NCBI GenBank assembly: GCA_029882685.1
Contig: JAOUKH010000012.1
Span: 1 to 32,933, forward strand
Source of the DNA: Cyclobacteriaceae bacterium
Lineage (GTDB): Bacteria > Bacteroidota > Bacteroidia > Cytophagales > Cyclobacteriaceae
DNA length: 32,933 nt
Direction of reading: 5' to 3'
The position numbers and the translations under genes were made by a program. This document shows positions 22,843 through 23,153 of the stretch, one piece after another. Below the pieces are notes generated by a model, which saw only the letters and a program-made list of their open reading frames with translations, did not search any database and was not told the origin of the DNA. Each line of letters opens with the position of its first letter. The first letter of the stretch is position 1.

Positions 22843-22897
22843 AAATGAGCCAATGACGGGATTTGAACCCCTGCCTGTCGGCAGACAGGCGTGACCT
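22843..22897 (-). pseudogene. Partial duplicate of the 3' end of tRNA-Thr, interrupted by a 20-bp insertion
   Basis: 22843-22870 is identical to 22953-22980 (28 bp). After a 20-bp insertion the match resumes with gtgacct (22891-22897 = 22981-22987). Confidence 0.85.
22871..22890. repeat. Short palindromic element inserted in the tRNA-Thr remnant
   Basis: ctGCCTGTC-GGCA-GACAGGC, perfect 7-bp stem with 4-nt loop, absent from the intact tRNA-Thr copy. Insertion can equally be aligned as 22870-22889 (CCTGCCTGTCGGCAGACAGG). Confidence 0.75.
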
Positions 22898-22957
22898 AGG
22901 TCACTATATTGTTACTCATACTTTCTCTGTCTTATACAAACAGTATTATCTTAAATG

Positions 22958-23029
<72 letters not shown>

Positions 23030-23080
23030 TTTGGGTTCTCTTGTCAGAGACTCATCGTAATTAGCCGAAGCTAATCAAAG

Positions 23081-23153
23081 AGCGGGAGACGAGGTTCGAA
23101 CTCGCGACCTACAGCTTGGAAGGCTGTCGCTCTACCAGCTGAGCTACTCCCGC
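23081..23153 (-). tRNA. tRNA-Gly (TCC)
   Basis: GCGGGAGTAGCTCAGCTGGTAGAGCGACAGCCTTCCAAGCTGTAGGTCGCGAGTTCGAACCTCGTCTCCCGCT; anticodon loop CTTCCAA. Confidence 0.96.

Follow-up and report, generated by a model that had tools for sequence, protein, structure and literature searches.

A palindrome within a displaced tRNA-Thr fragment and a putative family of tRNA-nested GIY-YIG elements

The window analysed here (the whole 32,933-nucleotide stretch of contig JAOUKH010000012.1, from a Cyclobacteriaceae bacterium) contains an intact tRNA-Thr gene and, next to it, a fragment of tRNA-Thr that is interrupted by a 20-bp palindrome, referred to below as PAL. What placed a palindrome in a tRNA fragment, and is PAL the mobile entity or only one part of it? 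A first-pass annotation of the locus took PAL for a very short mobile or REP-like repeat. The reading that we favour, with moderate confidence, is that PAL is the hairpin of an ORF-less member of a homing-like family of elements that nest in tRNA genes and encode a GIY-YIG nuclease.

The tRNA-Thr locus and its empty counterpart

The features on which the argument turns are listed here; the congener is genome G001.

22847-22869, minus strand: outer block of the displaced tRNA-Thr 3' fragment (tRNA positions 51-73), which keeps the old tuf-side flank, as at the congener's empty site
22870-22889, plus strand: PAL, a palindrome of 20 bp (CCTGCCTGTCGGCAGACAGG) inserted as a hairpin into the T-arm of the tRNA-Thr fragment, its border being uncertain by 1 bp
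22890-22897, minus strand: inner fragment block, X (tRNA positions 43-50), T-stem 5' strand
22891-22904, no strand assigned: second perfect palindrome, GTGACCTAGGTCAC (GTGACCT AGGTCAC), consisting of X and then its inverted copy, X'
22905-22956, no strand assigned: A+T-rich spacer of about 50 nt from the fragment to the intact tRNA, with a sequence that differs between units
22847-22956, no strand assigned: net 110-bp insertion relative to the congener's empty tRNA-Thr locus (from alignment to G001, L267; repeat spacing also 110); these borders are one among several equivalent placements
22957-23029, minus strand: intact tRNA-Thr(GGT), found by ARAGORN and identical to the congener's copy
23080-23153, minus strand: tRNA-Gly(TCC), empty in the window; the congener's copy holds a unit of the same design

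PAL splits the T-stem of the tRNA-Thr remnant, just as the first-pass annotation had it: the 20 bp at 22870-22889 enter between tRNA positions 50 and 51, on the 5' strand of the T-stem, and their border slides by one base (CC/PAL/C or CCC/...). Two other early observations also hold. The insert is G+C-rich in A+T-rich DNA (65% G+C, against 34.7% for the window), and it is the sole copy in the window, where a search allowing up to three mismatches found no other, as 100 shuffles also found none. The fold originally proposed, a 7-bp stem with a GGCA/TGCC loop, has to be replaced: as DNA, the minus strand, CCTGTCTGCCGACAGGCAGG, forms a stem of 8 bp, one of them a G.T pair, closed by a loop of 4 nt, and the plus strand forms a 6-bp stem.

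PAL also interrupts a direct repeat, the two copies of which (22843-22873 and 22953-22983) lie 110 bp apart. At the orthologous tRNA-Thr site of the congener, which is empty, the flank is the one that adjoins the displaced fragment in the window. It had been claimed that the insertion boundary can be read to within one base, and compared with an empty site that is so, but what has been inserted is the whole 110-bp unit and not the 20-mer alone. ARAGORN finds one intact tRNA-Thr gene, tRNA-Thr(GGT). The unit beside it has no ORF, and the spacer contains no recognisable nuclease remnant, so that derivation of the spacer from a nuclease gene was rejected. We regard the window unit as an ORF-less, 110-bp version of the family, its ORF having been lost or never present. 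Because the window copy lacks an ORF, a reader of this stretch could not see the GIY-YIG neighbour that is described below. The X-X' layout following the hairpin recurs in other short forms, at tRNA-Leu and tRNA-Asn of the same genome, at the congener's tRNA-Gly and at locus L011. The tRNA-Asn short form contains a mini-ORF, MFKSEGNRTFIPL, that resembles the nuclease C-terminus, a resemblance too short for proof.

Comparison of empty and filled orthologous sites, which had been proposed as a check, turns up both states between the two congeners. In addition to tRNA-Thr, the Leu(CAA), Ser and Lys sites are filled in the genome of the window and empty in G001. Conversely, tRNA-Gly is filled in G001 (fragment, hairpin CCTGCCTACCGTCAGGCAGG, X-X' palindrome, spacer and intact tRNA, in that order), and so, in G001 only, are Leu(GAG), Leu(TAA) and Pro. 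A unit upstream of tRNA-Met (L220, L368), with a TCCCGATGTAATCGGGA hairpin, is present in both genomes; since its spacers are also related, it must be the older insertion, and short units can thus persist through speciation. The architecture of the units and their mobility are well supported.

Hairpins, tRNA fragments and GIY-YIG genes beyond the window

Had PAL been unique in its genome, or no more frequent there than composition predicts, the idea of a dispersed element would have failed at once. The genome (G000, a 3.43-Mb draft that is 89% complete) contains five copies at up to two mismatches, and a reversed control gave none. Four of the five interrupt fragments of tRNAs, namely that of Thr in the window and those of Leu(CAA), Asn and Arg on contigs C164, C162 and C142, respectively. 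Beside the Arg copy is a GIY-YIG ORF that is truncated by the contig end, as expected for a tandem array. Around the 29 tRNA matches of this genome there are seven fragments of tRNA ends, and all seven are split by a hairpin. Downstream of the Lys and Asn tRNAs of this genome (L211:1590-1690 on C142; L214:1400-1440 on C162) there are 3' fragments, each with a different hairpin, that have in common a motif GGGCGAGAAGYCTRTCC...GGAAGCCC; after the Lys fragment comes a second copy of the tRNA terminator.

The first-pass annotation's suggestion of similar palindromes in other Bacteroidota turns out to be correct, and they extend to other phyla. PAL (at up to one mismatch) is carried by 13 of the genomes of 59 relatives; across the phylum it is found in 41 of 396 Bacteroidota genomes, at 0-12 copies per genome, with the reversed control at zero throughout. 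A scan of one genome per species yields at least 119 stretches with the exact 20-mer, in Bacteroidota, Cyanobacteria, Patescibacteria, Neomarinimicrobiota, Nitrospirota, Planctomycetota and others; many of these cross-phylum matches are in metagenome bins with possibly wrong labels, though the Bacteroidota and the Cyanobacteria are also represented by isolates. Viral contigs contribute 23 stretches. A sequencing or adapter artefact is ruled out: the 20-mer occurs in differing contexts, with matching empty copies, in isolates from separate projects (Galbibacter, Flavobacterium, Maribacter, Robertkochia and Anabaena).

The copies avoid genes, as a proposed check for intergenic bias anticipated: 26 of 183 fall in ORFs of at least 100 aa, at loci with a coding fraction of 0.79. 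Target-site duplication is absent from PAL flanks, which are the equal of permuted flanks in this respect. The flank profile of 148 copies has G at -1 (55%) and T at +3 (51%). For 18 of the 148, the surroundings form an unrelated inverted repeat with PAL in its apical loop (permutations gave 3.5), and a few copies are nested at the centre of a palindrome of PAL's own family (L037:2020-2070, L052:6480-6525, L056:6080-6140); we read the nested copies as insertions into hairpin tips.

Interrupted tRNA sequence is a recurrent setting (at least 25 of 163 distinct copies), and an uninterrupted copy of the same site lies within 700 bp of PAL in 35 of 215 cases, against one in the control. The second recurrent neighbour is a GIY-YIG ORF of about 80 codons, which is found within 400 bp of 28 of 218 PAL copies (7.5 would be expected at random positions), mostly at a distance of 12-40 bp; all the collected loci, some 1.1 Mb, contain only 32 GIY-YIG matches. 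Among the 59 relatives, the nuclease is present in 13 of 13 genomes with PAL and in 23 of 46 without it (p = 0.0008). Roughly 80% of PAL copies are outside tRNA fragments and far from GIY-YIG ORFs.

The unit ORF is assigned to the GIY-YIG family by Pfam (PF01541, E 5.8e-17). It is a bare catalytic domain, with invariant Y, Y and R residues and a nearly invariant E, and among solved structures it is closest to UPF0213 proteins, SLX1 and I-TevI. Tandem nuclease copies differ at 103 synonymous and 138 non-synonymous positions; without the two pairs that hold a decayed copy, the differences are 95 and 72. Set against the neutral ratio of about 1:3, these ratios suggest that the nuclease has been kept functional. 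Small GIY-YIG proteins of Neisseria reportedly cut single-stranded DNA at a palindromic repeat.

A census that started from the nuclease and was blind to PAL led back to tRNA genes. In a profile search of the 59 relatives, 21 of 29 loci had an intact tRNA as their same-strand neighbour, and in a phylum-wide search 27 of 30 did (with one locus counted per genome, the best match, which favours the profile's own subfamily). With tRNAs at a density of about 45 per 4 Mb, a rough calculation puts the chance of such adjacency at well under 1%. The far side of the ORF is usually occupied by a fragment of the same tRNA that starts exactly at the tRNA end. A G+C-rich hairpin divides this fragment, with palindromes of the CCTGCC..GGCAGG type as well as TCCCGAAAGCTTTCGGGA, TCCTGACTGGATTCAGGA, GCTGACCTCTGCGTCAGC, TCAGCCAAAGGCTGA and others. 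A few loci, such as L255, L265 and the congener's Leu(GAG) unit, have no clear fragment or no clear hairpin. The units occur at both ends of tRNA genes and at many tRNA species. 5'-type units run fragment, ORF, tRNA and have their hairpin in the D-arm; 3'-type units run tRNA, ORF, fragment and have it in the T-arm. The distance from the matched fragment to the tRNA is 54-59 nt in short forms, against 236-323 nt in units with an ORF.

Two simple arrangements were considered and rejected. Strict pairing of nuclease and hairpin is incompatible with the mixing of hairpin families among related nucleases and with the occurrence of PAL beside divergent ones (L142, L147, L153, L040), which also implies that PAL is not the private mark of one nuclease. 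A group I or group II intron splitting the tRNA does not fit either: the ORF is outside the intact tRNA, and when the window locus, L150 and L173 were scanned with Rfam for catalytic intron RNA, tRNA alone scored above threshold.

A homing-like reading and its rivals

Full units encode a homing-type endonuclease, occupy a conserved gene that nevertheless remains functional, and exist as empty and filled alleles at orthologous sites, all of which are attributes of homing elements. Cutting by the nuclease, homing and the role of the hairpin are what we infer from this. The nuclease would cut an unoccupied tRNA gene at its D- or T-arm, and repair would then copy in the unit along with a duplicate of the tRNA end; the cell would thereby retain a working tRNA, and the displaced old end would be left outside the unit. 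The hairpin may lock this displaced end, which would keep it from serving as a target for cutting or recombination and from folding, within a shared transcript, into a tRNA arm that competes with the real one. The fragment of a 5'-type unit would be transcribed ahead of the true tRNA, since it sits directly behind the old promoter flank (Leu, Ser); there, the D-arm hairpin (joined in short forms by the X-X' palindrome) might block folding of the fragment as a tRNA arm, or its re-cutting. Self-immunity conferred by the hairpin is insufficient by itself, because the intact tRNA of a filled unit retains the uninterrupted site; for the same reason, immunity should also depend on the flank that insertion has altered. 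PAL probably also moves on its own, since hairpin families are interchangeable and are dispersed in intergenic loops as well. We put forward more tentatively, as a proposal that could well prove wrong, that these units represent a widespread class of bacterial mobile element in tRNA genes, with a GIY-YIG nuclease beside the restored tRNA, an exchangeable hairpin as the required lock, and ORF-less parasitic units of about 110 bp spreading alongside.

A different division of labour would have the GIY-YIG protein act as a single-strand nuclease, specific for structure or sequence, with the hairpin itself as its cognate substrate; it would mobilise that hairpin much as REPs are moved by a transposase, and would hit tRNA arms because these are hairpins too. 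The short distance of PAL from the ORF start (12-40 bp, in one instance, L142, with no tRNA), the presence of structure-specific SLX1 among the profile relatives and the apical-loop insertions would all suit it. This explanation is nonetheless unlikely: unrelated hairpin families take the same position beside related nucleases, PAL accompanies divergent nucleases, and the majority of PAL copies have no nuclease nearby.

The first-pass suggestion of a REP-like element, which would be mobilised by a TnpA_REP (RAYT) transposase and have only an incidental tRNA context, fares less well, and we consider it improbable. REPs are intergenic stem-loops of 20-40 bp, usually present at more than 20-100 per genome, with an unpaired GTAG/CGTC tag and a link to TnpA_REP (PMC3733652). 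PAL shares the first of these properties, being a short, dispersed, intergenic palindrome, and to that extent the suggestion stands; insertion into apical loops with no target duplication would suit single-strand transposition, and Y1-type transposase genes are indeed present in the genome of the window (10 matches) and in all 13 PAL-bearing relatives. They occur, however, in 33 of the 46 relatives without PAL as well (p = 0.05), and the proposed association with TnpA_REP comes down, among all copy-bearing loci, to a single Y1-type ORF at a distance of 1.5 kb (in a search seeded by this genome's Y1 proteins only). PAL falls short of a REP, too, in copy number (0-12 per genome) and in its ends, as neither a GTAG nor a CGTC tag was found at the flanks of 148 copies; moreover, the tRNA fragments, the GIY-YIG genes and the unrelated hairpins in the same position would be left unexplained. 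An IS200/IS605 element or remnant was rejected on the grounds that the units have no Y1 ORF. (Tandem IS200/IS605-type TnpA genes with fragments do occur on contig C5 of this genome, at L006, L007 and L009; they are unrelated to PAL.)

Fragments next to intact tRNAs resemble attL/attR relics, and 3'-type units do lie at tRNA 3' ends, as would be expected if tyrosine-recombinase islands or phages had integrated there site-specifically and random palindromes had struck the remains later. The 5' ends of tRNAs (Leu, Arg, Ser, Asn) carry many units too, however, and the sole gene between fragment and tRNA is the GIY-YIG ORF, with no integrase; 27 of the 30 blind nuclease loci at tRNAs, two spacing classes (about 54-59 and 236-323 nt) and a hairpin that is almost always there make relics of this kind very improbable. 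Insertion into a functional tRNA gene would be lethal. Neutral decay, in which tandem tRNA duplicates degenerate and gather palindromes with no element involved, could draw on the consideration that only redundant tRNA copies can show insertions, and on the two tandem intact tRNA-Glu genes of this genome, but it is the least probable explanation of all in view of fragments that begin exactly at the tRNA end even in the young insertion of the window, of an old flank that stays with the fragment, of a remaining fragment identical to the gene, and of a nuclease ORF that is recurrent on the same strand and conserved.

Relation to known systems

If homing-like elements do nest in tRNA genes, their closest analogue that we have found is the fungal mitochondrial endonuclease ORF that carries a duplicated end of its host gene, examples of which are in Allomyces atp6 and in Glomus atp6, atp9, cox2 and nad3 (PMC3630166). 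In those cases also, a free-standing LAGLIDADG or GIY-YIG ORF enters an essential gene, the duplicated end restores the gene, and the native end is displaced downstream. The fungal hosts, in contrast, are mitochondrial protein-coding genes and the displaced end has no hairpin (PMC3630166); the units described here occupy bacterial tRNA genes at either end, their fragment is split by a hairpin, and the donor end is identical to the target instead of foreign. Free-standing homing endonucleases, such as the Seg proteins of phage T4 in intronless homing, are similarly encoded by small GIY-YIG genes adjoining a presumed target, but restoration of the host gene and a hairpin-split fragment are undescribed for them (PMC1564403). 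REPs and REPINs with TnpA_REP, as well as CGTC-tagged repeats that lack a transposase, are likewise short intergenic palindromes distributed across phyla (PMC3733652, PMC2817692); PAL differs in its low copy number, in having neither tag nor Y1 neighbour, and in its tie to GIY-YIG/tRNA units. The unit ORF is of the same type as the single-domain GIY-YIG proteins of UPF0213/COG2827 (1ZG2, 1YWL), which are annotated as hypothetical only; the entries 1ZG2 and 1YWL do not record nesting in tRNA genes. Searches of open-access articles turned up no description of the 20-mer or of GIY-YIG units nested in tRNA genes, and a widespread family of tRNA-nested elements has apparently gone undescribed.

If the homing-like reading is true, essential tRNA genes of many Bacteroidota have repeatedly been colonised by small nuclease elements that duplicate part of the gene and spare the host, much as the mobile endonuclease ORFs of fungal mitochondria do. 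The same reading would account for the abundance of tiny GIY-YIG genes and of odd tRNA fragments near tRNA genes, and would offer one route for the spread of short palindromes across phyla. It would also supply a testable link between transposase-less hairpin repeats and a nuclease family that is often annotated as hypothetical.

Some individual loci deserve mention. At L185:430-1120 (genome G291), nine tandem 5' halves of tRNA-Leu, each with PAL and with a period of about 77 bp, precede one intact tRNA-Leu; the first unit seemingly derives from a different tRNA-Leu. At L142:2789-3065 (CACYDE010000257.1), the hsdM and hsdS genes of a type I restriction operon flank a GIY-YIG ORF; there is no tRNA, and PAL is located at the extreme end of hsdM, 12 bp ahead of the nuclease start. 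PAL is often open in frame with the adjacent nuclease (L013, L028, L054, L076, L150, L153, L243), and the peptides that are read from it, among them CLPTGR, PVCRQAG, LPVGRQG and LSADRQA, may contaminate protein annotations.
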